31,319 nucleotides of DNA from a virus. Below are positions 4,334 through 24,374 of this stretch, piece by piece (positions within the stretch are counted from its first letter, which is position 1; each line of letters starts with the position of its first letter). Both the position numbers and the translations under genes were made by a program. The stretch is from positions 1-31,319 of IMG/VR virus record IMGVR_UViG_3300047163_000236. One strand, written 5' to 3'. Under the pieces are notes generated by a model. The model ran no database searches. It was not told the origin of the DNA and saw nothing but the letters and a program-made list of their open reading frames with translations.

Positions 4334-4347
4334 AAGTAAGAGGCAGC

Positions 4348-5742
4348 ATGTTCGAAACAATTTGTGACACCATCCCGGCGGATAGCGGGATGCCGGCGCG
4401 CGTGCGCCGGCTGGATGTGCTGCGCCGCGTGCTGGATGGCACGATTTATGACGGCCTGACCTATCAGTTTCATGAAGAGCGGAATGGCGCGGGCGAATAT
4501 GTGCCGCTGCGGATGCGCCGGCCTGCCGTCCGGTATGGGCTGTGCCGCGTGGTGGTTGAAGATTCGGTGGCGCTGCTGTTCAGCAACGCGCATTTCCCGG
4601 CGGTGGAATGCGCGGATGCGGAACTGGCCGGCGTGCTGGCGCGCATTGTTGATGAGACGCGGCTAAACGAGGTGATGATTGACGCGGCACTTCGCGGCTC
4701 GGTTGGCTCGGTCGCTGTGTTGATGCGGGTGTTGAAGGGGCGGGTGTTTTTCTCGGTGCTGGAAAGCCTTTTTCTGACACCGCAATGGGATGTGACGGCG
4801 CCCGACACGCTGAGCAGCGTGACCGAAAAATATAAGGTGAGCGGAGCGGATTTGCTGGCACAGGGTTACACCGATGTTGATCCAGCCACGATCTATTGGT
4901 TTCAACGAATCTGGGATGATGGAGCAGAAACTTGGTATTTGCCGTGGGCGGTGAACGACCCGCTGGCAATGCCGGTGGTTGATAAGGCGCGCAGCGTTTC
5001 GCACGGGCTGGGTTTTGTGCCGGTTGTGTGGATAAGGAATCTGCCGGGCGGCGATGGCGTGGAGGGCGCCTGTACGTTTCGGGCCGCGATCGAGACGAAT
5101 ATCGAGATTGATTATCAGCTCAGCCAGGCCGGACGCGGGTTGAAATATAGCTCGGACCCGACATTGCTGATCAAGGAGCCGGCGGTCGGGGATTCCCAGA
5201 TCGTGAAAGGTGCAGCCAATGCTCTGGTGGTTTCCGAAAAAGGCGATGCCAAACTGCTGGAGATTGGCGGGACAGCGAGCGAGGCCGTGATATCCTATGT
5301 TCGCACCTTAAGGGAATTTGCGCTGGAAGCCGTGCATGGCAATCGCGCGAGCGCGGACCGGCTGACCGCCGCGCAATCCGGCCGGGCGCTGGAGCTGATG
5401 AACCAGGGGCTGATCTGGCTCGCGGATAATTTGCGGATTTCCTACGGTGATGGTGGCGTGCTCCCGCTTTTAAAAATGGTCGTGCGGGCCTCGAATATCT
5501 ATCCATTGCTGGTGATGGGCGAGGTTGTGGCGCCGATGGATACGGCAACGAGAATTTCGTTGCGCTGGCCGCGCTGGTATCCGCTTTCCGCGGATGACCG
5601 GCTGAAGGAAGCACAGGCCGTCGCGACGCTCGCGAATGCCGGGCAGCTTTCGCGGGAGGCCGGCGTGAAAGTGACGGCGGCGGCAACGGGCGTTGAAGAC
5701 GTGGCGGCCGAACTTGATGCGATTGACCAGGAGTCTGCATGA
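4348..5742 (+). CDS. Portal protein
   Basis: A 464-aa protein placed directly after the terminase gene. It resembles SPP1 gp6-type portals: an N-terminal wing domain (LRRVLDGTIYDGLTYQFHEE), a central segment with IETNIEIDYQLSQAGRGLKY, and a long C-terminal helical stem/crown region including SGRALELMNQGLIWLADNLR. Twelve copies would form the ring at one vertex that binds terminase, the scaffold and the connector. The stop overlaps the next start (ATGA at 5739-5742), implying translational coupling. No minor head protein or protease gene follows, which is less common in this module. Confidence 0.85.
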   Translation: MFETICDTIPADSGMPARVRRLDVLRRVLDGTIYDGLTYQFHEERNGAGEYVPLRMRRPAVRYGLCRVVVEDSVALLFSNAHFPAVECADAELAGVLARIVDETRLNEVMIDAALRGSVGSVAVLMRVLKGRVFFSVLESLFLTPQWDVTAPDTLSSVTEKYKVSGADLLAQGYTDVDPATIYWFQRIWDDGAETWYLPWAVNDPLAMPVVDKARSVSHGLGFVPVVWIRNLPGGDGVEGACTFRAAIETNIEIDYQLSQAGRGLKYSSDPTLLIKEPAVGDSQIVKGAANALVVSEKGDAKLLEIGGTASEAVISYVRTLREFALEAVHGNRASADRLTAAQSGRALELMNQGLIWLADNLRISYGDGGVLPLLKMVVRASNIYPLLVMGEVVAPMDTATRISLRWPRWYPLSADDRLKEAQAVATLANAGQLSREAGVKVTAAATGVEDVAAELDAIDQESA

Positions 5743-6131
5743 CCGAAGAGACAAATGATACCGGTGAAGACTGGCAGGCGCGCGCCGAACATGCCGAGGC
5801 GGCGCTGGCGGATGAGCAGGCGCAGGCGAATGCGCGGCTGATTCGGGCGGAGCTAAAGGCGGAGGCAATCCGCGCCGGGATGATTGATCTAGACGGGCTG
5901 AAATTGCTCGACCTGGCGGATGTAAGCCTGAACCAGAATGGCGAAGTTGCCGATGCCGCCGCGATTTTGGCGAAGTTGAAGCGAACGAAGCCGTGGCTGT
6001 TTGCCAATGTTGCATCCTCCTCCGCCGCCGCGAATCCGCCAAAGCCGGAGCCGCCGCGGATGCGGCATGCGCGTGAGCTGAGCCATGAAGAGTGGCTGGT
6101 GGCGAGGGCTGCGCTGCTACGTAGAAAGTAA
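5739..6131 (+). CDS. Scaffold-like head assembly protein
   Basis: A 130-aa acidic, helical protein. Residues 15-50 form a likely coiled coil rich in Ala, Glu and Arg (WQARAEHAEAALADEQAQAN...). It is followed by a motif typical of phage scaffold families (DUF4355/GP20-like): AEAIRAGMIDLDGLKLLDL, then LAKLKRTKPWLF. The C-terminus is basic, as in scaffolds that bind the capsid protein. Its place between portal and major capsid genes fits. No serine protease signature is present. The start lies within the portal stop and has AGGAG upstream. Confidence 0.75.
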   Translation: MTEETNDTGEDWQARAEHAEAALADEQAQANARLIRAELKAEAIRAGMIDLDGLKLLDLADVSLNQNGEVADAAAILAKLKRTKPWLFANVASSSAAANPPKPEPPRMRHARELSHEEWLVARAALLRRK

Positions 6132-6138
6132 GTCGTGG

Positions 6139-6158
6139 ATGCCGGCCTGCGCCGGCAT
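6139..6158. repeat. Short palindromic repeat, ATGCCGGC stem-loop
   Basis: Arms ATGCCGGC (6139-6146) and GCCGGCAT (6151-6158) enclose a CTGC loop in the 73-bp gap before the capsid gene. This GTGGATGCCGGC...GCCGGCATGACGG form is a common small interspersed palindrome in proteobacterial genomes. It lacks a following T-run, so it is not a typical intrinsic terminator. It might stabilise the 3' end of the scaffold message or adjust capsid expression. Confidence 0.6.
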
Positions 6159-6204
6159 GACGGCTGTTGTGTGTGAGGCTTTTAACAGTTGAAGGATTTG
6201 GCTT

Positions 6205-7527
6205 ATGGGCATTCAGAATTTTCCGGCGGCGTTGCAGCCGATCATTCAGCAGGGGTTTCTGGAACGCGAGTTCGAGATGTCTCTGAAATCGCGGCTTGGG
6301 TATCGGCTGATCGCGGACCGGGAGGAATTCTCGGTCGGCATCGGCGAGACGCTGACCAAAACCCGTGCCGGGTTGAAACCCACCGTGACGGTGCCGCTGG
6401 TGGCGGCGAGCAATACGAATTTGGATAACGGCCTAACCGCCACCAGCTGGGGTATAGAGCAGTATACCATCACGCTGAATTTCTACGCGGCAACGCAGGA
6501 TTTGAACATGGTGACGAGCCGTGTCGGCATCGCCTCGCAATTTTTGCAGAATGCCGCGACGAATGGCGAGCAGGCCGCGCGCAGCCTGGATGAGCTGGCG
6601 CGCAACGCGCTGTTCGCCCCCTATTTCGGCGGCAATACAAGGGTGATGACGGCTCTCAATTCGGCGGCCCCAAGCGTCGAAGTGGACGATATTCGTGGAT
6701 TCCAAACGGTTTTTGTCAACGGCGTGCAGCAGGGTGTTTCCAGCAGCTATCCGCTGACGGTGACTGTTGGGTCGAACACGTATACCGTTGTCGGCGTAAC
6801 GCCGGATGCGACGAATTTTTCAACGGCACCTGGCGGCATCTCCGGCGTCTTGCAGTTTTCCGGCAATGTAGCAACCATCGATGCCGCCGTGGGCAATCCC
6901 GTGCAGGCCGCGACGGCGAGTTCCATCATCCGGCCGGCGTCCCGCAACACGACCGCGGCGCTGCAGGCAACGGATCAGCTGACGATGGGGAATTTGCTGG
7001 ATGCCGTGTCCCTGCTGCGGCGCAACGCGGTGCCGCTGGTGGATGGGGTTTATAATTGCTATCTCGATCCGGTTTCCGCGCGGCAGTTGTTTTCGGACCC
7101 GGACTTCAAGCAGTTGTTCCAGGGCGCCACATCCTCCAACCCGGTCTTCCGGCAGGGCATGGTAAGTGATTTTCTGGGCTTGCGGTTTATTACGACAACG
7201 GAAGCCTATGTCCAGGCGCACCCCACAACTCCGGGGATTTACGTGCGGCGGCCCATTGTGTGCGGCCAGGGCGCGCTCATCGAGGGTGATTTTGCCGGCA
7301 TGGCGGGGGATGATGTGGCGCCAAAAGACAGCCTGGTGAACATCATCGACAATGTGGCGATGGTGACGCGCGAGCCGATTGACCGGCTGCAGCAGATTAT
7401 CGCGCAAAGCTGGTATTGGATCGGGGGGTTCTGCGCGCCATCCGATACCACCACCACGTCGACCACGGTGCCAACAGCAACCAACGCGAATTACAAGCGC
7501 GCGGTGATGCTGGAGCATATCGGGTAA
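6205..7527 (+). CDS. Major capsid protein, HK97-like, with inserted beta domain
   Basis: A 440-aa shell protein in the standard position after the scaffold. The N-arm and first core segment run to about residue 145 (FLEREFEMSLKSRLGYRLIA; WGIEQYTITLNFYAATQDL). Residues of roughly 155-235 are a beta-rich insertion (VEVDDIRGFQTVFVNG, YPLTVTVGSNTYTVVGV) that looks like an inserted surface domain. The core resumes with LTMGNLLDAVSLLRRNAVP and a domain near FRQGMVSDFLGLRFITTTEAYV, a pattern seen in HK97-fold capsids. GAAGGA lies eight bases upstream of the ATG. The assignment rests on order, size and these core motifs. Confidence 0.85.
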   Translation: MGIQNFPAALQPIIQQGFLEREFEMSLKSRLGYRLIADREEFSVGIGETLTKTRAGLKPTVTVPLVAASNTNLDNGLTATSWGIEQYTITLNFYAATQDLNMVTSRVGIASQFLQNAATNGEQAARSLDELARNALFAPYFGGNTRVMTALNSAAPSVEVDDIRGFQTVFVNGVQQGVSSSYPLTVTVGSNTYTVVGVTPDATNFSTAPGGISGVLQFSGNVATIDAAVGNPVQAATASSIIRPASRNTTAALQATDQLTMGNLLDAVSLLRRNAVPLVDGVYNCYLDPVSARQLFSDPDFKQLFQGATSSNPVFRQGMVSDFLGLRFITTTEAYVQAHPTTPGIYVRRPIVCGQGALIEGDFAGMAGDDVAPKDSLVNIIDNVAMVTREPIDRLQQIIAQSWYWIGGFCAPSDTTTTSTTVPTATNANYKRAVMLEHIG

Positions 7528-9864: not shown

Positions 9865-11415
9865 ATGCCGATTTTTGCAGAAGGCGCGTTGAATACCACG
9901 GCGCTGATTGTGCCGGATTTATATGTGCAGATTGTACCGCCGCAGACCTTGCTTCTCAACGGCGTGGCCACGGATACGCTGGGCGTTGTGGGCACTGCAA
10001 GCTGGGGGCCGGTGGGCGAGCCGGTGATTATTGGGACCATGAGCGCCTATGCCGCCGCATTTGGCCCGGTGATGGCGCGCAAGCACGATATGGGCACGGC
10101 GGTTGCGGCCGCGGTGCAGCAGGGGGCGGCGAATTTCCGTTGCGTGCGCGTGACGGATGGCAGCGACACGGCGGCTTCGGTTTCTCTGCTTGGCGCCATT
10201 ACATTCACGGCGTTGTATACCGGCAGTTTGGGCAACCAGTTGACGGTGACACTTTCCGCCGGGTCGGCTGCGAGTTCCTGGCGGTTGTCCGTAGCGCTGC
10301 CGGGGCTTAGCCCGGAGGTGTTTGATAACATCTCCGGCACTGGTGCTGTGTTCTGGAGCAATCTGGCGAATGCGGTGAACCACGGCAATGGCGCGTTGCG
10401 CGGGCCTTCCCAGCTTGTTGCAGCTACGACTCTTGCCGCGAGTGCGACGCCGCTGGCGGGGACGTATCCGTTTTCCGCCGGTACGCCGGGGACGGATGGC
10501 GCCGGCGCGGTGACGGCGGGGACGCTGGTGGGGAGTGATACATTGCCGCGCGCCGGCATGTACGCGCTGCGCGGGCAGAGTTGCGCGCTGGCGATGCTGG
10601 CGGATGCGGATGATGCAACACAATGGAGCGTGCAGGCGGCATTTGGACTTTCCGAAGCGGTATACATGATTCTTACTGGGCCGGCCGGAGATACGATTGC
10701 CAATGCGGCGGCGACCAAGGCGGCGGCGGGGATTGATACCTATGCCGTGAAGCTGATGTTTGGTGATTGGGTTTATTGGTACGACCAGGCGAATGCGCTG
10801 ACCAGGCTGGTTTCGCCACAGGGGTTTGTAGCGGGGCGGCTGGCGAATTTGTCGCCGGAGCAATCATCTTTGAACAAGCAGTTATATGGCGTGATTGGCA
10901 CGCAGAGATCCGGCCAGCCGGGCGGGGGCACCGCGACGACGTATGCGTCCGCTGATCTTTCGGCGCTGCTTTCCGCGGGGATTGACGTGATTGCCAACCC
11001 GCAGCCGGGTGGCGCGTATTGGGGGGTGCGGGGCGGGCATAATGCATCCTCCAATGCTGCCATCCAGGGCGATAATTATACGAGGCTGACCAACTACATT
11101 GCGAGCACGCTTTCCGCCGGCATGGGGCAGTATGTGGGGCAGTTGGTAAATGCCACACTGTTCCAGAATGTACGGGCGACATTGCTGGCATTTTTGAATG
11201 GGCTGCTGGGGCAGGGGATGTTGGGAAGCACCGATGGGTCCCTGCCATTCGCGGTGGTGTGCGATACGTCGAATAATCCCAGCACGCGGACCGGGCTTGG
11301 CTATGTTCAGGCGGATGTGCAGGTGCAGTACCAGGCGATTAACGAGAAATTCATTGTGAATGTGCAGGGCGGGCAGACGGTGCAGGTGAGCCAGCAGCTT
11401 GTGCCGAGCGCGTAA
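9865..11415 (+). CDS. Tail sheath protein
   Basis: A 516-aa contractile sheath subunit, of usual size. The N-terminus PGLYVQIVPPQT-like segment (IVPDLYVQIVPPQTLLLNGV) and the following LGVVGTASWGPVGEPVII are characteristic sheath features, as is GVAQGAANFRCVRVTDG-like strand (AAAVQQGAANFRCVRVTDG). The C-terminal part (LSAGMGQYVGQLVNATLFQNV, then YVQADVQVQYQAINEKFIVN) is the conserved domain that wires neighbouring subunits together. A middle domain with FGDWVYWYDQANALTRLVSPQGFVAG follows the common pattern of an exposed insertion. This gene identifies the virus as myovirus-like. Confidence 0.92.
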   Translation: MPIFAEGALNTTALIVPDLYVQIVPPQTLLLNGVATDTLGVVGTASWGPVGEPVIIGTMSAYAAAFGPVMARKHDMGTAVAAAVQQGAANFRCVRVTDGSDTAASVSLLGAITFTALYTGSLGNQLTVTLSAGSAASSWRLSVALPGLSPEVFDNISGTGAVFWSNLANAVNHGNGALRGPSQLVAATTLAASATPLAGTYPFSAGTPGTDGAGAVTAGTLVGSDTLPRAGMYALRGQSCALAMLADADDATQWSVQAAFGLSEAVYMILTGPAGDTIANAAATKAAAGIDTYAVKLMFGDWVYWYDQANALTRLVSPQGFVAGRLANLSPEQSSLNKQLYGVIGTQRSGQPGGGTATTYASADLSALLSAGIDVIANPQPGGAYWGVRGGHNASSNAAIQGDNYTRLTNYIASTLSAGMGQYVGQLVNATLFQNVRATLLAFLNGLLGQGMLGSTDGSLPFAVVCDTSNNPSTRTGLGYVQADVQVQYQAINEKFIVNVQGGQTVQVSQQLVPSA

Positions 11416-11429: not shown

Positions 11430-11858
11430 ATGCCGTATAATACGTTTTCCGTTGGCAGCGACTGCCAACTTGTGGTGATGGGGCCGTTCGGCCGGGTGGA
11501 TTTGGCGCATGTGACCGGGTTTGAGGCGGCACAGGTAACGCAGGCGATTCGCGTGGACCGGCTGGATGGCGTGCAACTCGGCGCGGAGCTGCCCAAGGGT
11601 TGGCAAGGCGTATTCACTCTGGACCGTGGCTCCTCCGCCGCGGATGACTTTATCGCGTCAATCGAGCGGGCTTATTTGAATGGGCAGTCCATTGGGGCGG
11701 GGACTTTGTACCAATATGTTAACGAACCTGATGGCTCGACATCCACATACCAATTCAGTGGGGCCGTGTTCAAATTGGTGTCCGCCGGCGCGTACCGGGG
11801 GGATGCGCCGGTTGCGCAGAAATTGCAGTTTTACGCATCCAGCCGGGTGAGGGTGTGA
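11430..11858 (+). CDS. Tail tube protein
   Basis: A 142-aa protein directly after the sheath gene. The beginning MPYNTFSVGSDCQLVVMGPFG and centre LPKGWQGVFTLDRGSSAADDFIA fit the small beta-barrel tube proteins of contractile tails (FII/DUF2597-like). It would polymerise into the inner tube through which DNA passes. AAGGGAGAG lies upstream. Its stop overlaps the next gene's start (GTGATG at 11855-11860), a coupling usual between tube and chaperone genes. Confidence 0.88.
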   Translation: MPYNTFSVGSDCQLVVMGPFGRVDLAHVTGFEAAQVTQAIRVDRLDGVQLGAELPKGWQGVFTLDRGSSAADDFIASIERAYLNGQSIGAGTLYQYVNEPDGSTSTYQFSGAVFKLVSAGAYRGDAPVAQKLQFYASSRVRV

Positions 11859-12160
11859 TGGAGCGGGTGATTACGGACAAGGCCGGGCGGCGGCTGACGC
11901 TGCGCAAGTTCGGCGTGCTGGAAACGTTGCGATTGTTCAAAGGCGTGGGGCCGGAGCTTTCCGCAAACAACGCTTATATCGGCGTGGCGAGCTATGCCGG
12001 TTCTGTTGCGATGATTGACGATATTCCGATGCCCTTTCCGGCGAGTGAGGCGGGTGTTGAGGCGTTGATTGAGCGGCTTGGCGATGAGGGGATGGAAGCG
12101 GTGATGGCGGCGGCCAAGCCAGCGGCGATTGAGACGGTGGTTGCAGACGCGGGAAACTAA
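11858..12160 (+). CDS. Tail assembly chaperone, short (G-type) product
   Basis: A 100-aa protein starting at ATG 11858 (a GTG at 11855 is an alternative). It opens with MERVITDKAGRRLTLRKFGVLETLRLFKGVG, a pattern found in tail assembly chaperones, and ends helical (ALIERLGDEGMEAVMAA). Translation stops at TAA 12158-12160. The last two sense codons are part of the slippery sequence G_GGA_AAC, so a fraction of ribosomes should continue in the -1 frame. The chaperone coats the tape measure protein during tail assembly and is absent from the virion. Confidence 0.88.
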   Translation: MERVITDKAGRRLTLRKFGVLETLRLFKGVGPELSANNAYIGVASYAGSVAMIDDIPMPFPASEAGVEALIERLGDEGMEAVMAAAKPAAIETVVADAGN

Positions 12161-12173
12161 GCCGGCACCCGGC
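12151..12173 (+). promoter_or_regulatory. Programmed -1 ribosomal frameshift site
   Basis: The heptamer GGGAAAC at 12151-12157 reads G_GGA_AAC in the zero frame, an exact X_XXY_YYZ slippery sequence, one base different from lambda's GGGAAAG. The zero-frame TAA follows at once. A hairpin GCCGG-CAC-CCGGC (12161-12173) starts three bases downstream and could stimulate slipping. Efficiency cannot be judged from sequence. Confidence 0.9.
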
Positions 12174-12330
12174 ACTGACGGATTGTTTGTATCTGGTGAA
12201 GTGCGGGGTGCCTTATGATGTGGCGTTTGGGCTGGATGAGGCGGAGCGCATGGCTTATGTTGTGGCACTTGGGTGTTTGGATGGTTTGACGTTTGATTGG
12301 CGGCGGCTGCGGTGGGATGAGTCTGTTTAA
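12157..12330 (+). CDS. Frameshift extension of tail assembly chaperone (T-type domain)
   Basis: This is the 57-codon -1-frame extension of the gene at 11858; joined to it the fusion is 157 aa. It starts LSRHPALTDCLYLVKCG, has VAFGLDEAERMAYVVALG and ends with GLTFDWRRLRWDESV before TAA 12328-12330. The DEAERMA...FDW pattern is typical of the distal chaperone domain in phages with contractile tails. There is no ATG at the start of this frame and the first one is deep in the domain, so independent translation is unlikely. The extension is thought to recruit tube subunits to the tape measure complex. Confidence 0.88.
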   Translation, partial: LSRHPALTDCLYLVKCGVPYDVAFGLDEAERMAYVVALGCLDGLTFDWRRLRWDESV

Positions 12331-12365: not shown

Positions 12366-13328
12366 ATGAGGCGAATTCTTGTTTTGGGCGTTGCATGTTT
12401 ATTTGCCGTACTGTTGGCCGGCACAGCCGCGATTTATTGTTACGATGGCATGTATGGCATTAACACCGTATTGCATGGAGGGCCGACAAGGTGGCTTACC
12501 ATGCAGGCTGATGACAAGCGGCTGCCGGTTGAAATTCAGTGGGCGCTTGGGGGCCGGCCGCCGGAAGCGGCGCCTGGGCCGTTTGCATGGCGGCAGATTG
12601 AGCCTGGGCTTGAGGTTGCGGAACTGCCGGTGATTGCCGAGGGGCGCAATGTTGATAGCATATTGCTTACGCGGATCGACACGGAGAAGTTTCGATTTGA
12701 GTTGCGGAACAGGGAAGCGGGCGATCGTGACCTTGCCGGTTGGATGCGTGCGTTAAGGCCGGTGGTGTTGATTAACGCAAGTTATTTTTCGCCGGACGCG
12801 CGGCCGGATACACCGTTTTTGAGTGAAGGCCGGCTGATCTCAGCGCGGAATGACCCGCCGGCGCAGGGTGTTTTTACTGCTGGGCAAAGCGAGGCAGAGG
12901 TTGAGGCGCTGCCGAATAGCGATTGGGGGCGGGCCTTCCAGGGCGCTGAGAATGCGCTGGCGACATACCCGCTGCTGATTGGGCCGGATGGGTCCAATAT
13001 GGGCATTCAGGAGAGCCATTGGGTGGCGAACCGCAGTTTCGTGGGTGAGGATGGTAGCGGCGGGATTATTCTGGGTACGACGACCGGTGCGTTTTTTTCG
13101 CTCGCTAGGTTTGCGATATTTCTTCATTTGGCGCCTTTGGGGTTGAAATTGGCGTTGAATTTGGATGGCGGGCCGGTGGCGTGCCAGGCGGTGGATACGC
13201 CGGAATACCAGCGGCGTTTTTGCGGCGAGTGGGAGATACGCGACCGGGGTGGAATGTTTAAAGTTTTGAAAATGCCGAAGGGGAGTTGGATACCGTTGCC
13301 GGTTGTGCTTACAGTGTATCGGAAGTGA
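12366..13328 (+). CDS. Phosphodiester glycosidase (NAGPA/DUF2233)-like protein
   Basis: A 320-aa envelope protein in the place where a tape measure gene is expected. Residues 3-24 are an uncleaved signal anchor or signal peptide (ILVLGVACLFAVLLAGTAAI). The rest has the family's motifs in order: VVLINASYF (133-141), GRLIS (155-159), YPLLIGPDG (201-209), RSFVGED (223-229), and LNLDGGP (264-270), the near-invariant LDGG segment. Family members hydrolyse or handle glycan phosphodiesters, for example wall polymers or N-acetylglucosamine-1-phosphodiesters. The likely site is the periplasm. A TTG six bases earlier is an alternative start. It is a cargo gene, not a virion part by any feature I see; substrate unknown. 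Confidence 0.8.
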   Translation: MRRILVLGVACLFAVLLAGTAAIYCYDGMYGINTVLHGGPTRWLTMQADDKRLPVEIQWALGGRPPEAAPGPFAWRQIEPGLEVAELPVIAEGRNVDSILLTRIDTEKFRFELRNREAGDRDLAGWMRALRPVVLINASYFSPDARPDTPFLSEGRLISARNDPPAQGVFTAGQSEAEVEALPNSDWGRAFQGAENALATYPLLIGPDGSNMGIQESHWVANRSFVGEDGSGGIILGTTTGAFFSLARFAIFLHLAPLGLKLALNLDGGPVACQAVDTPEYQRRFCGEWEIRDRGGMFKVLKMPKGSWIPLPVVLTVYRK

Positions 13329-13351
13329 CGACAAGGTAGGCTGAGCCGGTT

Positions 13352-13540
13352 ATGTTTCCTTCACTAGATATAATAGACATTTTGACCTCGCGGCAAATTT
13401 TGGCTATTCCGGAGTTTTTGATTCTGTATGCTTTGTCCACGTTTGTTGTGAGGCTCGGCTTCAGAGAGTCTGTGCTATTCATCTTTCTTTATTTGCTCAA
13501 TCAAATCGTCATCGTTGCCGCTAATCAAGCGGCGGATTAG
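13352..13540 (+). CDS. Small two-helix membrane protein
   Basis: A 62-aa protein with two hydrophobic segments (about 17-34, ILAIPEFLILYALSTFVV, and 39-57, ESVLFIFLYLLNQIVIVAA) joined by a short basic loop RLGFRE. AGGTAGG lies 11 bases upstream. No homologue is recognised. It sits in DNA that becomes AT-rich relative to the phage genes. Its position ahead of a lysozyme-like gene makes an immunity, antiholin-like or holin-like role conceivable, without direct evidence. Confidence 0.55.
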   Translation: MFPSLDIIDILTSRQILAIPEFLILYALSTFVVRLGFRESVLFIFLYLLNQIVIVAANQAAD

Positions 13541-13555
13541 CTCAGATAACAAAAA

Positions 13556-13969
13556 ATGTTACATTCTAACGCCACGCTCAATCTTGTCACTTTAGGGCCG
13601 ATCTTCGCTATACCGGTCTCTCTTGCGTTCTATGTCGTTTTTAGGCATTCAATCGGCAAATCTATACCAGGACTAGCTTTGTTATTTCTCGCTACACCTG
13701 GCATCTTGCTAGCTTATCTGTGGTGGCTTATTTTAGATGACAGTTTTTTGTACTATATTTGTTTTAGTATCATTATAATACCAACCAATGTCATATCTCC
13801 ATGTTTTGCGATTTACGCAGTTTTTTTGGCTTGTAAAAAAAACGACTTTGTAAAAATGTCAGACTTACAAAAAAAAATACTTATAATATCGATTGGATGC
13901 CTAGGCATCTTTTATGTATATGATCAGATTGTTGTTTTTACACTAATTCAATCTTTGAGAGATTTTTAA
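13556..13969 (+). CDS. Four-helix membrane protein in AT-rich DNA
   Basis: A 137-aa very hydrophobic protein with four probable transmembrane helices (about 10-29, 37-60, 64-92, 107-130) and a charged loop ACKKNDFVKMSDLQKK between the third and fourth. Base composition is strikingly different from its surroundings (only 16 of 60 bases are G or C at 13741-13800), a sign of recent acquisition. No recognised domain. It ends 17 bases before the lysozyme-like gene. I consider an immunity protein against that gene's product the most interesting option, but nothing in the sequence proves it. Confidence 0.6.
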   Translation: MLHSNATLNLVTLGPIFAIPVSLAFYVVFRHSIGKSIPGLALLFLATPGILLAYLWWLILDDSFLYYICFSIIIIPTNVISPCFAIYAVFLACKKNDFVKMSDLQKKILIISIGCLGIFYVYDQIVVFTLIQSLRDF

Positions 13970-13986
13970 CATCAAAAGTGAGAAAA

Positions 13987-15468
13987 ATGGCCGTCTATAT
14001 TCCCCGTCCGGGCAAATCAAATACTGATCCGCAACCTTATGATAAAGCCGCTCTTCGGTATTTGAAAGATAACGAGTCAACTATAAATCTTGTTTCCTCT
14101 GATCTTGGTGTTTCCCCGAACGCCGTTGCGGGCAGTATGGCCCGGGAGATAACAAGATCCGATGGAGAAATATTGCCGGAACATGCCCTTCACGCGGTTT
14201 TGTTTGATCTCGCAAAGTTAAAGTCTGAGCAAAGCTATGAGGAGGAGTACCAGAAGGATTTACAAGACATTGCTCGAAACCCAGGTATTCTAGACGGTAA
14301 CCCATGGGGAAGATACCTCTCTTACCCTACCGTTCGGGATATCGGACCGGGTTCGATTAAAGTCTTTACCGCCATTCAGATAATAAAGCAGTACCAAGAG
14401 ACGGCGCAAGCTAAGGCACTCGGGTTAGATAAATATAAGTTGACCGACTTGAAGGCTATTGTTCATGATCTGAACGATCCGGCCAACCCGCTTAGTATCA
14501 AAATCGCCGGACTGGTCGTCTTGAATGGCCAAAAATTCTTCTCCGATAAATCCATTGCCGGAATTCCTTGGGCAAAGTTGACGAAGGAACAACAGGATGC
14601 CGCGCTAACCGCCTATTATACGGTTGGTGAGCATGCGGTTAGCGTTGACATGGCGAAGAATGAGTTTTTCCCTTTTGCGCCTGGGCCGAAGGGCGGCAAG
14701 GTGGGTCCCTGGATTTTATTCGGTAATAATTATTCAAATCTGAATACTATACTTGCGAAAGGCAGATCACTCGGCCTTTCGGTTGCCCCGGTTGCGCGGC
14801 CAAAGCCACCGCGAAAAGCGCAGCCCGAATATATGAAACACGCTGGAACGGGTGCGATGCTGGCTCCCGCACGGAAGGTTTTGGATTTGCTTCCGGTAGG
14901 TACAAATTATATTGCAAATATAGCGGCGGCAGTGGAGGCGGCAAATGTACCGGCAGCGAAGTATATGGCGGCGGCGGGAGGCTTGCCGCAATCTTTAGCG
15001 CCCCGGCTGTGGGCTGAGTTACCTGCTGACGTCAACCGGCGTGGGAGCACCTATACAGCGCTGGCGCAAGGACAGCCAGGCAGCTTAGTTAGTGAATTGT
15101 ATCTGGCGATGAAAGATAGGACCGCAATGGCGCTATGGGTTGCCGGTGCGGCAGCTTCGGCGCCGGTGTTTTCGAGATTTTCCGCAATCGAGCGGCGGAC
15201 ATTGCCTAGCATCTCGCCGATAGGGCGCCGTGCGCGGGACGAGGTTTCGGCTGAGCCTTTGGTTGCGCGAAGCGCGGAGAGCGCTATGCCCGCGGCCGGC
15301 CAATATGCAGCCCCGGTTTTGCCGGCGGGGCAAAAAATTGATCAGCGGCGGTTGCGCGGCGCGTTGGATGAGCTGTTGAGCCGGCAGGGGCGGTTGCCGC
15401 CTTCCGGCGGTGCGGCGTTCGACCCGCTGCTGACGCCGGCGTGGCCGGGGCTGCAACTGCCCGTTTGA
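13987..15468 (+). CDS. Lysozyme/transglycosylase-like domain fused to a phage tail C-terminus
   Basis: A 493-aa protein (ATG 13987; GTG at 13978 is possible). Residues 30-225 recall the lytic transglycosylase/lysozyme fold: SSDLGVSPNAVAGSMAREIT with a candidate catalytic Glu54, RDIGPGSIKVFTAIQII (117-133), which matches the usual glycine-rich motif, and DAALTAYYTVGEHAV (204-218), akin to the AYNAG motif. After about residue 265 the sequence is Pro/Ala-rich with weak hydrophobic stretches (NYIANIAAAVEAANVPAAKYM; MALWVAGAAASAPVF) and ends RGALDELLSRQGRLPP...FDPLLTPAWPGLQLPV. Base composition shifts from AT-rich to GC-rich within the gene, supporting a fusion. It has no long coiled coil, so it is not an ordinary tape measure protein. 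The enzyme role is inferred from motifs, and the tape-measure origin of the C-terminus from its position. Confidence 0.6.
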   Translation: MAVYIPRPGKSNTDPQPYDKAALRYLKDNESTINLVSSDLGVSPNAVAGSMAREITRSDGEILPEHALHAVLFDLAKLKSEQSYEEEYQKDLQDIARNPGILDGNPWGRYLSYPTVRDIGPGSIKVFTAIQIIKQYQETAQAKALGLDKYKLTDLKAIVHDLNDPANPLSIKIAGLVVLNGQKFFSDKSIAGIPWAKLTKEQQDAALTAYYTVGEHAVSVDMAKNEFFPFAPGPKGGKVGPWILFGNNYSNLNTILAKGRSLGLSVAPVARPKPPRKAQPEYMKHAGTGAMLAPARKVLDLLPVGTNYIANIAAAVEAANVPAAKYMAAAGGLPQSLAPRLWAELPADVNRRGSTYTALAQGQPGSLVSELYLAMKDRTAMALWVAGAAASAPVFSRFSAIERRTLPSISPIGRRARDEVSAEPLVARSAESAMPAAGQYAAPVLPAGQKIDQRRLRGALDELLSRQGRLPPSGGAAFDPLLTPAWPGLQLPV

Positions 15469-15476
15469 GGGGTGAC

Positions 15477-16175
15477 ATGAGCCAAGTAATTTTGACCCTG
15501 GGCGGCGTGAAATTCCAGGATTTTGAAGTGCCCGAGCAGATACGCTTTGGCGGCGGGCAGCGCCTGGCGGTGCATGAGCTGATCGGCGGCGGCCGGTTGG
15601 TGGATGCGCTGGGCGATGATGCCGGGGAGGTTGTATTTTCCGGAATCTTTTCCGGCAGTGATGCGGCATTGCGCGCGCAAACTTTGGATGCCGCGCGGGC
15701 GGAAGGTGCCGAGATTCCGCTGGTATGGGATGGGTTTTACTACACCGTCATTATCGCGGAGTTCGCGGCGGAGTACAACAAGCCCTGGTGGATTCCGTTT
15801 GCCATACGCTGCGCGGTGGTGGTTGACCCCGCCACTGCGTTTGACTCTTTGCTGGCGCCCGTTTCCAGTTTGATCAGCGGTGATATTTACGCGGCCTCGG
15901 CTCTGCTCTCGCTTGCGGGGTTGCCAGCGGGCGCCCTCGGTCGAGCGACGGCGGCTGGCCTAGCGGCCGTGCAGGCGGATATTGCGGGGGGACTTTCCAG
16001 CATGGGCAATTTGCTTGGCGGCAATGTGGCGGCGCTGAATGCGGCGCCGGATGCACTCACGGGTATTGGCGCGCTGAACCACATATCGGCAAACACAGGT
16101 GCTCTAGCGGGCTTGAGCGGCGTGAGCGGTTATGTGAACAGGGCCGCAACAAATCTGGCGGATGAACTTCTATGA
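15477..16175 (+). CDS. Baseplate/tail adaptor protein
   Basis: A 232-aa protein beginning at ATG 15477 with GAGGGG just upstream. The N-terminal half carries the pattern of tail proteins found beside LysM-type baseplate genes: FEVPEQIRFGGGQRLAVHELIGGGR, VVFSGIFSGSDAALRAQTLD, and YTVIIAEFAAEYNKPWWIPF. The C-terminal half is Ala/Gly-rich and helical (LAGLPAGALGRATAAGLAAV). It probably bridges the tape measure end and the hub. It overlaps the next gene by ATGA. Confidence 0.7.
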   Translation: MSQVILTLGGVKFQDFEVPEQIRFGGGQRLAVHELIGGGRLVDALGDDAGEVVFSGIFSGSDAALRAQTLDAARAEGAEIPLVWDGFYYTVIIAEFAAEYNKPWWIPFAIRCAVVVDPATAFDSLLAPVSSLISGDIYAASALLSLAGLPAGALGRATAAGLAAVQADIAGGLSSMGNLLGGNVAALNAAPDALTGIGALNHISANTGALAGLSGVSGYVNRAATNLADELL

Positions 16176-16360
16176 GCGTGCAAACGGTAACCGTGGCCGG
16201 CGGCAATTTGTTCAAGCTGGCCGCTGTGTATTTGAATGACGCAACACAATGGAACCGCATTGCGCAGGCGAATGGCCTTTCCGACCCCGTGTTGAACGGG
16301 TTGAACACGCTGGTGATTCCGCCGGTGAACCCGAATGCGGGGGGCGGCATTGCCGGTTAG
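16172..16360 (+). CDS. LysM-like tail protein X
   Basis: A 62-aa protein forming a single LysM-like fold: VTVAGGNLFKLAAVYLNDATQWNRIAQANGL, then a short turn and NGLNTLVIPP. This is the composition and size of P2 gpX-type proteins that sit in the baseplate centre next to the hub. The start overlaps the previous stop (ATGA at 16172-16175) and the end overlaps the hub gene by 26 bp. The glycine-rich tail (NAGGGIAG) is partly a consequence of that overlap. Confidence 0.85.
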   Translation: MSVQTVTVAGGNLFKLAAVYLNDATQWNRIAQANGLSDPVLNGLNTLVIPPVNPNAGGGIAG

Positions 16361-17324
16361 CCAGCCGCAGGTGCGGGTGAGCATTGGCGATGCGATTTTG
16401 CCTGGCGCCATTTCACTGGAAGTGGAAAAGGTTGCGTATTTTGCGGCCGGGCGGTTTGTGGTGACAATGCCGCTGCGTGGGAACACGGCGTTTTATGCTT
16501 CGCTTGGTTTGCAGACGATTACAATCAGCATTGCCGTGAACCCCGCGGGGTATTTGGAACTGCTGACCGGGCAGATTGATAATATCAGGATCGACCTGGC
16601 GGAGACCACCGCGACATTGTCCGGGCGGGATCTCTCGGCGCGGTTGATTGATACCGAAATATCCGAGACATTTGCCAACCAGACCGCGAGCCAGATTGCA
16701 ACCACCATCGCGGCGCGCCATGGGCTGGTGCCGAATGTCACCGCCACGGTAACGCCGGTTGGGCAGTATTACGAGTTGGACCATGCCCGCAGCGCGCTCT
16801 CGCTGCATTCACGGGCGGGCACTGAGTGGAACATGCTCTCCCTGCTGGCGAAGGCGGAGAATTTTGGGCTTTCCGTGACGGGGACGACGTTGAATTTCGG
16901 CCCCGTTGCGGCGGGGATTCCGGTTGTTCTCGCACCGCAAAGTTGCATTTCGCTCGAACTTGATGTTGCGACGACCATACCGGCAGCCACGACGGTGAAG
17001 TCCTGGAATACGCGCAACAAAACGGTGGTGACGCAGTCGGCTGGAAGTGGAACGGGAAATTCAACCACGCTAATCCGGCCGAACCTGACCAGCGCGCAGG
17101 CGAGCAGCCTGGCGGCAAACCATCTATCCGTGCTTGCGCGGCATGGCACGATTCTGCGGGCGACAATCCCCGGTGAGACGGCGCTGACGCCGGCATCGGT
17201 GATTTTGCTGACGGGGACAAATTCCTCGCTCGACCAGAGCTATGCGATTGATGCGATTATCAGATCGGTTGATGGGCGCAACGGCTTTACCGAGACCATT
17301 CACGCGCACGCTTTACCCGCTTAA
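16335..17324 (+). CDS. Baseplate hub protein (gpD-like)
   Basis: A 329-aa protein, homologous in style to P2 gpD and Mu gp44 hub subunits. The N-terminal beta domain includes ISLEVEKVAYFAAGRFVVTMPL and LLTGQIDNIRIDLAETTATLSGRDLSARLIDTEI, the latter a hallmark of hub proteins (GRDL..LID). A middle helical segment (TASQIATTIAARHGL) and LSLHSRAGTEWNMLSLLAKAENFGL also match. It forms the trimer at the baseplate centre on which tube and spike meet. I annotate from the ATG at 16335; a TTG at 16350 with less overlap is possible. Confidence 0.85.
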   Translation: MRGAALPVSQPQVRVSIGDAILPGAISLEVEKVAYFAAGRFVVTMPLRGNTAFYASLGLQTITISIAVNPAGYLELLTGQIDNIRIDLAETTATLSGRDLSARLIDTEISETFANQTASQIATTIAARHGLVPNVTATVTPVGQYYELDHARSALSLHSRAGTEWNMLSLLAKAENFGLSVTGTTLNFGPVAAGIPVVLAPQSCISLELDVATTIPAATTVKSWNTRNKTVVTQSAGSGTGNSTTLIRPNLTSAQASSLAANHLSVLARHGTILRATIPGETALTPASVILLTGTNSSLDQSYAIDAIIRSVDGRNGFTETIHAHALPA

Positions 17325-17335
17325 GGAATTTTGGT

Positions 17336-17881
17336 TTGGACCGTTTCTGGAATGCCGTGAAGGCGCAAGCCGGCGCGCTGGATGGGCTGGCCGGCGTGGC
17401 ACGGTTCGGGCTGGTATCCAGCTTCGACCCCGCCGCCTATGCCGCGCGCGTTCTCATGCAGCCGGAAAATGTGCTGAGCGGCTGGTTACCGATTTTGTCA
17501 GCCTGGGTCGGCAATGGCTGGGGCCTGGCGGCGCCGCTCACGCCGGGTGACCAAGTGCTGGTGATCGCGCAGGAAGCGGACGCGGAGCATGGGGTGGTTC
17601 TCGGCTGCGTATGGTCCGCGGTGGACAAGCCCGGCGGCGCGCCGAGCGGTGAGCTTTGGTTGCAGCACCAATCAGGAAGTTTTGTGAAACTGCACAATGA
17701 CGGGACGATTGCGATGCAGGCGGCAACGGTGAACGTGACAGGCAATTTGGTGGTGAGCGGCGATATCTCGGATAAAAACGGTGCGCACGGCACGCTGGCG
17801 GCTTTGCGCAACGCGCATGATGAGCATGTGCACGCGGACGGCCAAGGTGGCGTGACCGGCCTGCCATCGGTGACCGTGTAA
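17336..17881 (+). CDS. Baseplate spike (gpV-like), HxH tip
   Basis: A 181-aa cell-puncturing spike. The start is a TTG at 17336 with AAGGA eight bases upstream; no ATG fits. An OB-fold follows (LVSSFDPAAYAARVLMQPE...LSGWLPILSAW, LTPGDQVLVIAQEAD, GVVLGCVW). Then a repetitive beta helix, SGSFVKLHNDGTIAMQAATV and NVTGNLVVSGDISDKNG, leads to a tip with AHDEHVHADGQGGVTG. The HVH pair near the end is the metal-binding type seen at P2 and phi92 spike tips. It trimerises below the hub and pierces the outer membrane on sheath contraction. Confidence 0.88.
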   Translation: MDRFWNAVKAQAGALDGLAGVARFGLVSSFDPAAYAARVLMQPENVLSGWLPILSAWVGNGWGLAAPLTPGDQVLVIAQEADAEHGVVLGCVWSAVDKPGGAPSGELWLQHQSGSFVKLHNDGTIAMQAATVNVTGNLVVSGDISDKNGAHGTLAALRNAHDEHVHADGQGGVTGLPSVTV

Positions 17882-18243
17882 TGGCGGATCTGGCATTGCT
17901 GTTCGGCGGGGATTTATCCGTGGGGCCGACGGGGGATATTGCGGTGGCGGATGGGGCGGCACTAACGCAGCAGCGTGTGCTCCGCCGGCTGCTCACGAAT
18001 GCCGGAGACTATATCTGGCAACTCACCTATGGCGCGGGGCTGGGCCAATTTGTTGGCCAGCCAGGTGCGGTGGCGGCCATACAGGCGGTGACGCGCGCGC
18101 AAATGCTGCGGGAAACTGCCGTCGCGGCCAGCCCCGCGCCGGTGATCAGCGCGAGTTCGGCCACGGACGGAACGGTTTCGCTATCGGTGCAATACGCCGA
18201 TGCGGCGACGCAGCAGACCAATCTACTCAGTTTTTCAGTATAG
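17881..18243 (+). CDS. Baseplate wedge protein (gpW/gp25-like)
   Basis: A 120-aa protein that matches the gp25/gpW family: DLSVGPTGDIAVADGAALTQQRVLRRLLTNAGDYIW, then YGAGLGQFVGQPG. The core wedge subunit of contractile baseplates, it connects sheath and hub during contraction. The start shares its first base with the preceding stop (TAATG). Position between spike and gpJ-like genes is exactly as in P2. Confidence 0.88.
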   Translation: MADLALLFGGDLSVGPTGDIAVADGAALTQQRVLRRLLTNAGDYIWQLTYGAGLGQFVGQPGAVAAIQAVTRAQMLRETAVAASPAPVISASSATDGTVSLSVQYADAATQQTNLLSFSV

Positions 18244-18249
18244 GGCATC

Positions 18250-19374
18250 ATGCAATTATCGTTGCAGAATTTCTCCACTTTGGTGGAGGGGATGGCGGCT
18301 GCCGTGCAGGGGGCCGCGAGCAATTTGCTTGATCTGACGGCAGGTTCCGTATTGCGGGCGATTCTGGAGGCGAATGCCTCCATCGCGCTTTGGCTGCAAT
18401 GGCTCATCGTGCAGGTGCTGGCAACAACCAGGCTGGCGACGAGCACGGGGGCCGATTGCGACAGTTTTGGCGCGGATTTTGGATTTGTGCGGCTTGGCGC
18501 CGTGGCGGCGATTGGCCAGGTGACATTCTCGCGGTTTACGCCAAGTGTCGCGGCGTTTATTCCGGTGGGTACTACCGTTGCCACATCCTCCAACGCGACA
18601 AGTTTCACGGTGACGGCTGATCCCGCGAATCCTGCATACAGCGCCGCCGCCAGTGGCTATAATCTGGCGGCGGGCGTGGCGAGCGTGACGGTTCCGGTAG
18701 CCGCGAATGTTCCAGGCAGCGCCGGCAATGTTCAGCCGGGCGCGATTGCGGTGGTAAGTTCCGCGCTGGCGGGTGTTGATACCGTAACGAATACCCTGGC
18801 GCTGACGAGCGGGCTGGATGCCGAGAGTGATGCAGCGTTCCGGGCACGGTTTGGGAATTATCTGGCGAGCCTTTCGAAAGCGACGGATGTGGCGGTGGGT
18901 GCCGCCATTGCGGCAGTTCAGCAGGGGCTGAGCTATGTGATCAGCGAGAACATCAACCAGGCTGGTGCGCCGCAGATGGGCCATTTTGTGGTGACGGTTG
19001 ATGATGGCTCTGGCACGCCGCCGGCGAGTTTGCTGAGTGCTGTGTGGCAGGCTGTGAATGCCGTGCGGCCGGTTGGCGCCAGTTTTGCGGTGCAAGGGCC
19101 ACTGGTAACACCAGCTAATGTGTCTCTAACGATCATGACTCTTCCGGGCGTATCGCACCAAACGGTGGTTGCCGTTGTTGCGGCGGCGATTGAAAACTAC
19201 ATTGCGTCCCTCGGTGTGGGTGCCACGCTGAGTTACACCCGGCTTGCGCAGTTGGCTTATGCGGCGTCTGGTTCGGTTACGAATATTTCCGCGGTGCTGC
19301 TGAATGGCGGAACGGCGGATCTGGCGCCGCCCTTGTTCGGCGTGGTGCGCACTGGCACGGTCACGGTTTCCTGA
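18250..19374 (+). CDS. Baseplate wedge protein J (gpJ-like)
   Basis: A 374-aa baseplate component. Diagnostic parts are TAGSVLRAILEANASIALWLQWLIVQVL near the N-terminus, ASTGADCDSFGADFGFVRL, the repeated beta segments (GTTVATSSNATSFTVTAD; GYNLAAGVASVTVPVAANVPGSAGNVQPG), and GLDAESDAAFRARFGNYLASLSKATDVAVGAAIAAV, which is typical of the gpJ/Mu gp47 family. The C-terminus PLFGVVRTGTVTVS is also family-like. Together with gpW- and gpI-type proteins it makes the wedges. Confidence 0.9.
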   Translation: MQLSLQNFSTLVEGMAAAVQGAASNLLDLTAGSVLRAILEANASIALWLQWLIVQVLATTRLATSTGADCDSFGADFGFVRLGAVAAIGQVTFSRFTPSVAAFIPVGTTVATSSNATSFTVTADPANPAYSAAASGYNLAAGVASVTVPVAANVPGSAGNVQPGAIAVVSSALAGVDTVTNTLALTSGLDAESDAAFRARFGNYLASLSKATDVAVGAAIAAVQQGLSYVISENINQAGAPQMGHFVVTVDDGSGTPPASLLSAVWQAVNAVRPVGASFAVQGPLVTPANVSLTIMTLPGVSHQTVVAVVAAAIENYIASLGVGATLSYTRLAQLAYAASGSVTNISAVLLNGGTADLAPPLFGVVRTGTVTVS

Positions 19375-21805: not shown

Positions 21806-24361
21806 ATGCCGACAATCGGACAATTACCGGCCGCGAGCTCCGTTTCGGACAGCGATGAAGTGCCCATTTTCCAGAATGGCCAGACACTTGCGGCAACCCG
21901 CGCCCAGGTGCTGGCGGGGCTGCAAACCGCGCTCGTGGTGCCGCAGAATACGCTGCTTGGCGGCATTGGCCCCGGCTCCGCGGCGCCGGTGCCCATTGCC
22001 ATCGGGTCGAATCTTTCAATGTCCGGCGGCACGCTTTCCGCCAGCGCCGCGCCGTTTGAAATTACGTCACTGCCCGCCGGTGTGACACCTGGTGCGGCGG
22101 ATATTGTGCCCATTGGGCAAAGCGGTGCGAATGCCGGTATCACCTACGCCAATTTTATGGCGGGTATTGGCGGTGTCTCTGGCCTGCCAGGCGGCGCGCT
22201 GACAGCCACGGCCACGGGTGCGACAACCGCGCGCACGCTGGCGGCGCTGGCGGATAATGCCGTCTCCATCGAAGACTTTGGCTCCGCGGGTGACGGTGTC
22301 ACGGATGACAGTGCCGCCTTGCTCGCGGCCCTCGCATCCGGCAACCCGGTACGTTTTGGCGCAAAAACCTACGCGATTGCCGGCGAGTGCGACATCACCG
22401 CCGCCTCATGCGCCTTGCTCGGCGTTCCGGGACTGACCAAGCTCACGCGGCCCGCGCAATCCAGGCTCGGCACCTCCGCGACGGCGGCATGGATAAGTAT
22501 TTCATCCGCCACATTGTTCATCGACGGCATTATTTTTGACGCGAACACGGCCGTTACCGCCGATACCTACGCGGTGGCCATTCAGGCGGCGTGCACGAAA
22601 TCCATTGTCACACGCTGCCTGTTCCGCAACGCAAAGAGCCCGAACAATGGCTCCGGCCTGATTTACGTGGCGAGCGACCCAGCGATTACGCAGCACCATG
22701 TGAACGATTGCGAATTCACCGCCAATGCCGCGCATGGTATTTTCATTCAGGCATCGGATGCTTTCAGCATCACCAATTGCCGCGCGCACGACAATACCGG
22801 CAACGGCATTCATGCGGACAGCCAGGATCCGAGCTTCACGCTGAAAATCCGTGAGCTGCATATTGTCGGCAATACCACATGGAACAATAATTGTGGCATT
22901 CTGGTTGGTAACTTCAATACCACCAATACGGGTTCGGTGATTTACGGGAATGCCAACCCGGATATTCTGGCGGCGGTGATTGCCGCCAACAACACCTATT
23001 CCAACCGCGAATACGGCATTTTCATGTCCGGCCGGAATATTCTCGTCAGCGGGAATCTTTGCACGAACAACAGCGGTTCCGGCGGCAGCGGTGCAGGTAT
23101 TTTGTGTGATACCGGCTATTGCAAGGTGAGCGGCAACATGATCACCGGCGCTTCGGCGTTTGGGATTGATTGTGGTGGATCGATTTATACCGAAGTCAGC
23201 AATAACTACGTCAACGGCGCGGCTTACGGGATTAACATCGGCGGCGGCCAATACTGCACGGCGCGGGATAATTTCGTGCAGGACTGTACGGCAATTGGCA
23301 TTGATGTGCAGAACGTCGAATCCAACGGCCGCGGTAATGATTTCAACCTCGCCTGCACCGGGCTTTCCATTGTCGGCAACTGGATCAGCTATAGCGGGGA
23401 GGTGTTCGGCATTCAGGTTCTGGACGCCGCACAGAACGTGCTGATCGCGGATAATGTGATTCTGGCCGAACCAGGGGCAGACATGGCGCGGGCCGTTGCC
23501 GCCTATACCGATACGGCGACGATCCGTGGCAATGTTTTGAATTTCACCACGCGCTGGCTCGTGAATCCCACATTGGTGAATGGCGTGTATACGCTGGTGG
23601 TGCCTGACGTTGCGGATGCGGTGAGCATCTCGCAATCAACCGCGCCGGTGGCCAGCATCATCACCTCGCAAGGCCAGGTTTTGTTGGGGCAGATTGCGTT
23701 TGTGAAGGTGGTGAATGGCGGCAGCGGCTATACCACTGCCTCCATCAGTTTTTCCGGCACCGGCAGCGGTACAACCGCGCAGGTCTGGCTTTCGGGGGGT
23801 GCTGTGATCGGCGTGCAGATCACCTCCTGGGGGTCCGGATATGGGCCGGGGACGACGGCGACGATCAGCGGCAATGGCACGGGCGCCACGGTAACGGTGC
23901 AAGTGGGGCTGCCGATTTTGCAAAATAAGCAACTCACGATTGATTGCCTCACTTCCGTAACGTTCGCGGCGGCGGGAAGCTCACCCGCGCAAAGCAACTG
24001 GACGGGTGCGCCGATTAAAATCCCTGCAGGTGCAAGCATCGATTGGATCGGCAACGCCGGCGGCTGGCGGGCGGCGCGGTTTTCGCAAAGCGATTATGTG
24101 TCACCGAATGGGGATGGCAGCGTCACGCTGCGGACGCAATCCGGCGATATTTCGTTGCATCCCGCTGGCACCGGCATGGTGCGGTTATTGTCGGACACTG
24201 AATCCACCGGAGCGGTGGAACTCATCGGGCGTGGTTCTCCACTAAACACCGTCGCGGCGCCGGCGGGTTCGACATACCGGAATCTCAATGGCGGCGTCGG
24301 CAGTACGTTCTGGGTAAAACAGGCGGGAACGGGAACTGCCAACTGGGTTGCCGTCGCTTAA
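21806..24361 (+). CDS. Tailspike with right-handed beta-helix
   Basis: An 851-aa spike. Two N-terminal modules (residues 1-40 starting TIGQLPAASSVSDSDEVPIF; 84-121 with ITSLPAGVTPGAADIVPIG) are attachment modules also found in the next gene. Residues 153-176 (VSIEDFGSAGDGVTDDSAAL) are the classic opening of a pectate-lyase-type beta-helix. Asn-rich coils follow to about 600 (NTGNGIH, NNYVNGAAYGINIGGGQ). Two GGSGYT/GSGYGPG repeats lie near 640-690. The C-terminus (STYRNLNGGVGSTFWVKQAGTG) is a common phage spike end. It probably cleaves or binds surface polysaccharide; catalytic residues cannot be assigned. Confidence 0.85.
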   Translation: MPTIGQLPAASSVSDSDEVPIFQNGQTLAATRAQVLAGLQTALVVPQNTLLGGIGPGSAAPVPIAIGSNLSMSGGTLSASAAPFEITSLPAGVTPGAADIVPIGQSGANAGITYANFMAGIGGVSGLPGGALTATATGATTARTLAALADNAVSIEDFGSAGDGVTDDSAALLAALASGNPVRFGAKTYAIAGECDITAASCALLGVPGLTKLTRPAQSRLGTSATAAWISISSATLFIDGIIFDANTAVTADTYAVAIQAACTKSIVTRCLFRNAKSPNNGSGLIYVASDPAITQHHVNDCEFTANAAHGIFIQASDAFSITNCRAHDNTGNGIHADSQDPSFTLKIRELHIVGNTTWNNNCGILVGNFNTTNTGSVIYGNANPDILAAVIAANNTYSNREYGIFMSGRNILVSGNLCTNNSGSGGSGAGILCDTGYCKVSGNMITGASAFGIDCGGSIYTEVSNNYVNGAAYGINIGGGQYCTARDNFVQDCTAIGIDVQNVESNGRGNDFNLACTGLSIVGNWISYSGEVFGIQVLDAAQNVLIADNVILAEPGADMARAVAAYTDTATIRGNVLNFTTRWLVNPTLVNGVYTLVVPDVADAVSISQSTAPVASIITSQGQVLLGQIAFVKVVNGGSGYTTASISFSGTGSGTTAQVWLSGGAVIGVQITSWGSGYGPGTTATISGNGTGATVTVQVGLPILQNKQLTIDCLTSVTFAAAGSSPAQSNWTGAPIKIPAGASIDWIGNAGGWRAARFSQSDYVSPNGDGSVTLRTQSGDISLHPAGTGMVRLLSDTESTGAVELIGRGSPLNTVAAPAGSTYRNLNGGVGSTFWVKQAGTGTANWVAVA

Positions 24362-24374
24362 GGAAACACAAAAC

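Follow-up and report, generated by a model that had tools for sequence, protein, structure and literature searches.

A tail module without a long tape measure gene

What takes the place of the tape measure protein (TMP) in a contractile tail module that has no long gene for it is the question raised by the complete IMG/VR record IMGVR_UViG_3300047163_000236, which was analyzed here over all of its 31,319 bases (hereafter the window) and which comprises a head module, a contractile tail module and an endolysin. We consider it likely that this record represents a domesticated phage-like particle of Acidocella-type Acetobacteraceae equipped with a polymorphic, TMP-derived effector system, in which a 496-amino-acid (aa) protein encoded at the TMP position (13978-15468) would be an effector-carrier chimera.

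A preliminary description of the window had placed no long TMP between the chaperone and baseplate genes, and this was confirmed, since the slot contained open reading frames (ORFs) for only four proteins, all on the plus strand like the other head, tail and endolysin genes given below. These encode a phosphodiester glycosidase-like protein with an N-terminal hydrophobic segment (12366-13328, with a start at 12360 or 12366; Pfam NAGPA, PF09992, E = 1.3e-11, 45.4 bits against a cut-off of 25), a 62-aa membrane protein with two hydrophobic segments (13352-13540), a 137-aa membrane protein with four (13556-13969) and the 496-aa protein, whose complete ORF overlaps the first baseplate-side gene (15441-16175; PHROG 21362, E = 1.7e-39). 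The glycosidase-like gene and the two membrane protein genes were likewise in agreement with that description. As for a TMP elsewhere in the window, the scanned ORFs gave no TMP family match, and the large ORFs further downstream were found to conceal none, as the other ORFs above 700 aa were rich in Gly, Asn, Thr and Ser and fiber-like by both composition and family matches.

Phages and viral contigs yielded no relatives when searched with the complete 496-aa protein; a sheath alignment instead retrieved 80 viral contigs and 80 bacterial-genome loci, the latter mostly from Acetobacteraceae or related records of Rhodospirillales type. The survey covered 115 slots for their content, 152 loci for the chaperone frameshift and 150 family genomes for the C-terminal tail described below. 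The absence of a long TMP was revealed to be a property of the lineage, in that only a handful of the 115 slots held an ORF of at least 600 aa. The chaperone in front of the slot is retained: in the window its ORF (11855-12160) has a 57-aa extension by a -1 frameshift (11855-12330 overall, from frame translation), with the slippery heptamer GGGAAAC (12151-12157) immediately 5' of the stop codon, and this arrangement was kept in 146 of the 152 loci, with GGGAAAC in 110 and AAAAAAC in 32.

TMP ancestry of the slot proteins

Synteny with related elements identified intact TMPs in the same slot, namely those of locus L149 (850 aa) and phage phiKX1 (742 aa), both assigned to PHROG tape measures, together with a weaker match for L147; the long slot proteins of L137 and L139 had no PHROG tape measure match, yet were matched by the N-terminal profile of the short slot proteins. 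Most other slots contained one short protein, the last ~60 residues of which aligned with the C-tail of the 496-aa protein (15286-15465, ...RLPPSGGAAFDPLLTPAWPG...; alignment of 74 members), a putative docking or packaging tag that was found in 42 of the 150 family genomes. The larger carrier region that ends in this tail (aa 247-496; 14716-15468) had profile matches in 73 loci and is 36% identical across 261 aa to that of the sister contig L002.

A hidden Markov model (HMM) of the short-slot-protein N-terminus matched the long proteins of L149 (E = 2.7e-12), L147 (8.7e-10) and L139 (2.3e-9) as well as L137, the E-values referring to a set of 68 proteins. In the basal relatives, the C-tail is joined to such a TMP-type N-terminus (HMM match to TMPs of 689-850 aa in the same slot) through a proline-rich middle part, with 20-24% Pro in the three proteins measured; in the Acidocella, Acidiphilium and Rhodopila elements, the TMP-type N-terminal segment has also been lost. 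Because their N-termini match long TMPs of the same slot, the short slot proteins are most readily understood as eroded TMPs, and these comparisons demonstrated their TMP ancestry at the sequence level. No direct HMM match of the C-tail to the long TMP of L149 was obtained, and hhalign gave a weak match to its end (E = 6.9e-5, probability 63%); most economically, the conserved C-tail would be the TMP C-terminus.

The 496-aa protein is thus not a canonical TMP, long and largely helical: it had no TMP family match, and its N-terminus was unmatched by the short-TMP profile. What it shares with the TMPs of its relatives is the C-tail, which it has in common with short slot proteins that match long TMPs at their N-termini. 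The proposal that a cargo cassette had replaced the TMP therefore found support with regard to effector cargo but not with regard to an unrelated swap, as the TMP appears to have been eroded and reused. Since the 496-aa protein keeps this tail of a TMP-derived family, the idea that an unusual short protein sets tail length may hold alongside the effector reading.

Shortening of the tape measure seems to have happened in another branch too, as suggested by related viral contigs (L150, L152 and L157-L160) whose slots encode short proteins of 305-445 aa with a different conserved tail, ...SPLSWVQSTPCYPGVHL. The slots of L161, L163 and L164 belong to a further branch, with short proteins that share another tail (RRGSGGVDE...FPG) and are unmatched by the C-tail profile.

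Exchangeable N-terminal domains and paired upstream genes

Within the Acidocella clade, several lineages carry unrelated domains in front of the carrier, including lysozyme-like, SLT transglycosylase and unassigned types, and at least five N-terminal types were found on one C-tail. Type A occurs in L002, L103, L097, L093 and L213, the last on another contig, and is preceded in each case by homologous membrane proteins of 231-259 aa. Type B (L089, L096 and L218) is preceded by homologous secreted proteins of 160-173 aa, and type C (L145 and L216) by homologous proteins of 142-145 aa. This adjacency of homologous genes established the pairing of domain and upstream gene for the three types, and the upstream immunity-like proteins were present in tandem copies in L093 and L096. 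As for the domains themselves, the type B domain of L089 matched a tail-lysozyme PHROG (1.4e-5), and L220 encodes an SLT transglycosylase domain (Pfam 30.3 bits against a cut-off of 21.3) with the C-tail in another frame; a structure model of the type A effector (predicted local distance difference test score, pLDDT, 61) gave no fold match.

The modular nature of these chimeras was evident from close relatives, in which sheaths 94% identical accompany unrelated domains, and from a graft seen in two sister genomes: G182 encodes a bare 247-aa carrier at the 3' end and G181 a 504-aa protein with a ~255-aa domain ahead of the same carrier, the two proteins sharing 153 of 254 aligned positions. In the sheath tree, all nine effector-bearing loci fell in one well-supported clade of 32 rows, which also included 15 of the 16 loci with an empty slot; the 'empty' slot of L066 is probably a gene fusion (631-aa ORF) and was not counted as evidence.

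Two further ORFs were observed. In L222 (G161:C79), an open frame of 667 aa located 3.4 kb past the sheath matches the C-tail weakly and is possibly a longer fusion, and in L136 an extra 478-aa slot ORF (4098-5534), ending ...YVWHHHQDGTTMQLVPEPIHTSTGHTGG and resembling an HNH-type nuclease toxin, lies downstream of a 458-aa C-tail protein.

The 496-aa protein and its membrane neighbors

The same architecture was found in the window. GC content rises from 34% in the gene for the 137-aa four-transmembrane protein to 48% in the N-terminal domain of the 496-aa protein (aa 1-246; 13978-14715) and 60% in the carrier region, the latter equal to that of the backbone, and the step at the domain border indicates that the acquired part ends there. 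The N-terminal domain is 63% identical in L224, with which the full-length protein is shared at 54% identity, and a remote homologue occurs in L223. The L223 protein (G107:C27; 550 aa) has the window-type domain followed by a Hint domain, a polymorphic-toxin architecture, and adjoins a four-transmembrane 135-aa protein; it looks like an independent polymorphic toxin locus.

The preliminary description had called the 496-aa protein lysozyme-like, an assignment that we did not adopt, as searches of Pfam, PHROGs, NCBIfam and PDB gave it no support and the structure model was too weak to lend any; E57 is invariant in the three sequences of the domain, which showed no family or fold match. The 137-aa protein is the candidate immunity protein, and the 62-aa protein, matched by a profile built from it (E = 8e-16), is probably its partial paralogue.

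A long TMP is likewise missing from the sister contig L002, which is the same record as L151/G012 and has a sheath 94% identical to that of the window. Its slot contains genes for a membrane protein of 253 aa, for a 470-aa protein that matches the 496-aa protein over the C-terminal half of both, for the NAGPA protein and for a truncated homologue of the 137-aa protein, as well as an orphan 89-aa copy of the C-tail immediately before the baseplate gene. The truncated homologue is thus kept without the window-type toxin domain, the pattern that would result from displacement of an older effector-immunity cassette by a new one, with the antidote of the former left in place.

The NAGPA gene was also considered as cargo, for which we found no evidence; it lacks the C-tail, is present only in the window, L002 and L085, and was kept as an accessory gene. 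It is 84% identical between the window and L002 and always adjoins the 62/137-aa membrane protein genes.

Relocated carrier genes and further C-tail proteins

Many Acidocella-type loci have a slot of only 157-209 bp, which corresponds to the frameshift extension alone. Genome-wide C-tail searches located the carrier gene of eight such empty-slot genomes close to the end of the element that bears the endolysin, ~16-17 kb downstream of the sheath, and that of eight other genomes in the slot; none of the 16 had both. The carrier has therefore been relocated, and the element seems to need the carrier gene but not its position.

Genomes G181 and G182, both of which appear to be metagenome-assembled, encode further C-tail proteins on other contigs, and those on contigs C16 (G181) and C44 (G182) are separated from the contig ends by 20 kb or more. 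The three off-contig carriers tested were closest, among 19, to the core carriers of these same sister genomes. Such proteins would fit a loading signal recognized by the cell's own particle.

Probable maintenance by the host and a proposed mechanism

Between the window and its sister, dN/dS (the ratio of nonsynonymous to synonymous substitution rates) was 0.03-0.24 over 15 genes, including those for terminase, portal and head protein, and 0.03-0.21 over the head and tail genes, indicating purifying selection on the structural genes, those of the head included. The nine elements compared each contain the full set of head and tail genes, searches of the window and four related records gave no integrase match, most genomes have a single sheath gene, and the chromosomal genes flanking the element are common to four Acidocella elements. 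The single copy at a shared locus, the lack of an integrase match and the selection on head and tail genes agree with a gene transfer agent or other domesticated particle. In a Sphagnum study, apparently similar contigs were noted as temperate or degraded Acetobacteraceae prophages without excision modules, with tape measures unmentioned (PMC12142844); the present data argue against decay and for host-maintained particles.

On this basis, we propose that an acquired effector-like domain (aa 1-246) was fused to a carrier (aa 247-496) descended from the C-terminal part of a TMP. During assembly, the C-tail would most likely dock at the baseplate or hub within the tail tube, with the retained frameshifted chaperone assisting the loading, so that the effector would be enclosed in the tube lumen as a TMP would be. 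Sheath contraction would then push it into the envelope of the target cell, while sibling cells would be protected by the membrane immunity protein, i.e., the 137-aa protein together with its 62-aa partial paralogue. Loading, ejection, toxicity and neutralization, as well as a working of the window's pair like the others, are what we infer from these gene arrangements. The host probably uses the particle to inject antibacterial proteins into competitors, and the suggestion that the tail had been repurposed for an effector gained support from the modular N-terminal domains with paired immunity-like genes, the GC step and the cargo-type genes on other contigs. Only tentatively do we extend this to the TMP as a general cargo adaptor, whereby any protein bearing the ~60-residue C-tail or the ~250-aa carrier, even one with its gene elsewhere in the chromosome, could be loaded into the tail and injected into competitors together with its toxin domain, with dedicated immunity genes.

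Several observations weigh against this explanation. The N-terminal domain of the 496-aa protein belongs to no recognizable enzyme family, and its AlphaFold model was poor (pLDDT 54) and without a fold match; the 137-aa protein showed no detectable similarity to the membrane protein adjacent to the L223 homologue. The evidence for the window's own effector-immunity pair is indirect, and the pair is accordingly termed a candidate. Many carriers of the relatives bear no recognizable toxin, which implies that the ancestral role of the carrier was structural. Finally, many of the loci are metagenome contigs or metagenome-assembled genomes, and some of the off-contig cargo could be binning error.

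Alternative explanations

The alternative that survives best, which we regard as unlikely, is an active phage whose tail is very short and in which the slot protein is a short tape measure, its N-terminal domain a tail lysozyme for genome entry, and the upstream genes morons. The TMPs of ordinary phages can bear lytic domains, and the lysozyme or SLT type of the L089 and L220 domains, the retention of chaperone and C-tail, and the rule of one carrier per element would all suit such a phage. It would, however, leave the upstream genes tracking the effector type in three families, the unrelated domains of relatives with nearly identical sheaths, and the C-tail proteins that the same genome encodes on other contigs to be explained, and the missing integrase and the flanking genes fixed in Acidocella also speak against it.

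The intact head genes under purifying selection, the lack of an integrase and the usual single copy at a shared chromosomal site would be in keeping with a particle like a gene transfer agent, having a reduced tape measure as its carrier and toxin/immunity genes that are not delivered weapons but passengers enforcing the retention of the locus. Such passengers would not need fusion to a TMP-derived carrier, yet even the off-contig cargo keeps the carrier domain, and we thus find this very improbable. Least probable of all is a degraded prophage, defective for tails as had also been considered, in which the destroyed TMP left a gap for unrelated cassettes to drift into, without a functional particle, as the missing long TMP and integrase and the naming of similar regions in the Sphagnum study might suggest, but the low dN/dS, the complete head and tail gene sets, the conserved frameshift signal and the family-wide C-tail contradict.

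Other genes of the window

The head module (2972-7527), conserved in the nine related elements, comprises the large terminase, portal, scaffold (5739-6131) and major head protein. The tail sheath (9865-11415; PHROG 23, E = 8.6e-50) is followed by the probable tail tube (11430-11858; 36% identity to the phiKX1 protein at the same position), and the hub (PHROG 52), spike, gp46-like and baseplate J genes (16335-19374) were assigned in the order of the named phiKX1 baseplate genes. The first 82 residues of two successive fiber proteins (21806-24361 and 24348-26531) are 40% identical and probably form a shared attachment domain, and the endolysin belongs to glycosyl hydrolase 108 (29023-29535; Pfam PF05838, E = 2e-22). 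At the left end, a helix-turn-helix repressor (1-333, minus strand; Pfam HTH_3) lies beside a plus-strand gene (436-789) weakly similar to the GcrA cell-cycle regulator, a pair that may reflect host-type control of the element.

Relation to known systems

The closest published concept is that of Sle1/Sle2 from Streptomyces lividans and the effector-immunity pair from Micromonospora eburnea (PMC13277306), in which a TMP-related carrier segment bears interchangeable domains and an immunity protein accompanies one member. In those systems, a TMP-like coiled coil forms the N-terminal part and pairs with a DUF4157 partner, whereas in the present family the polarity is reversed, the immunity genes lie upstream, further C-tail proteins occur on other contigs, and no Pfam match to DUF4157 was found on the slot proteins or adjacent genes scanned. 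Similarly, Tme from Streptomyces davawensis is a TMP-related effector of a contractile injection system (PMC11126660) that is encoded beside baseplate genes and has a separate functional domain. Tme is very large (catalytic His2051), with DUF4157, transmembrane helices and a C-terminal enzymatic domain, in contrast to the short, C-terminal TMP-derived part found here without a DUF4157 match, in an element with head genes and an alphaproteobacterial host. A TMP-related segment fused to a variable domain, as in Tme and Sle1, was nonetheless found here as well.

The Komagataeibacter phages phiKX1 and phiKX2 (LC644975 and LC644976) have a homologous head and tail module in the same gene order, with the 742-aa tape measure in the slot. 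PBSX-type particles and R-tailocins are domesticated contractile phage particles able to act between bacteria, and to our knowledge none of them has a fused, exchangeable effector on a TMP carrier. Effector-immunity pairs of type VI secretion systems, contact-dependent inhibition systems and Rhs proteins combine swappable toxins on a conserved delivery part with cognate membrane or secreted immunity and leave orphan remnants after displacement, all features resembling those described above; here, the conserved delivery part is the TMP-derived C-tail of a phage-type particle and the toxin is N-terminal. As modular TMP-derived effectors have already been published for Streptomyces, what sets the present family apart is the C-terminal carrier, the absence of DUF4157 matches, the head genes, the host group and, likely, the dispersed cargo.

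Within a single family, the apparent steps thus run from a full tape measure via a shorter version and a bare carrier to fusions of toxin and carrier with antidotes. Such a series makes testable the route from a phage tail to an effector-delivery machine, the working of a contractile tail without a long tape measure, and the minimal sequence for cargo loading. Should the C-tail prove to be a portable loading signal, it would offer a compact tag with which to study how contractile particles deliver proteins in Gram-negative bacteria.

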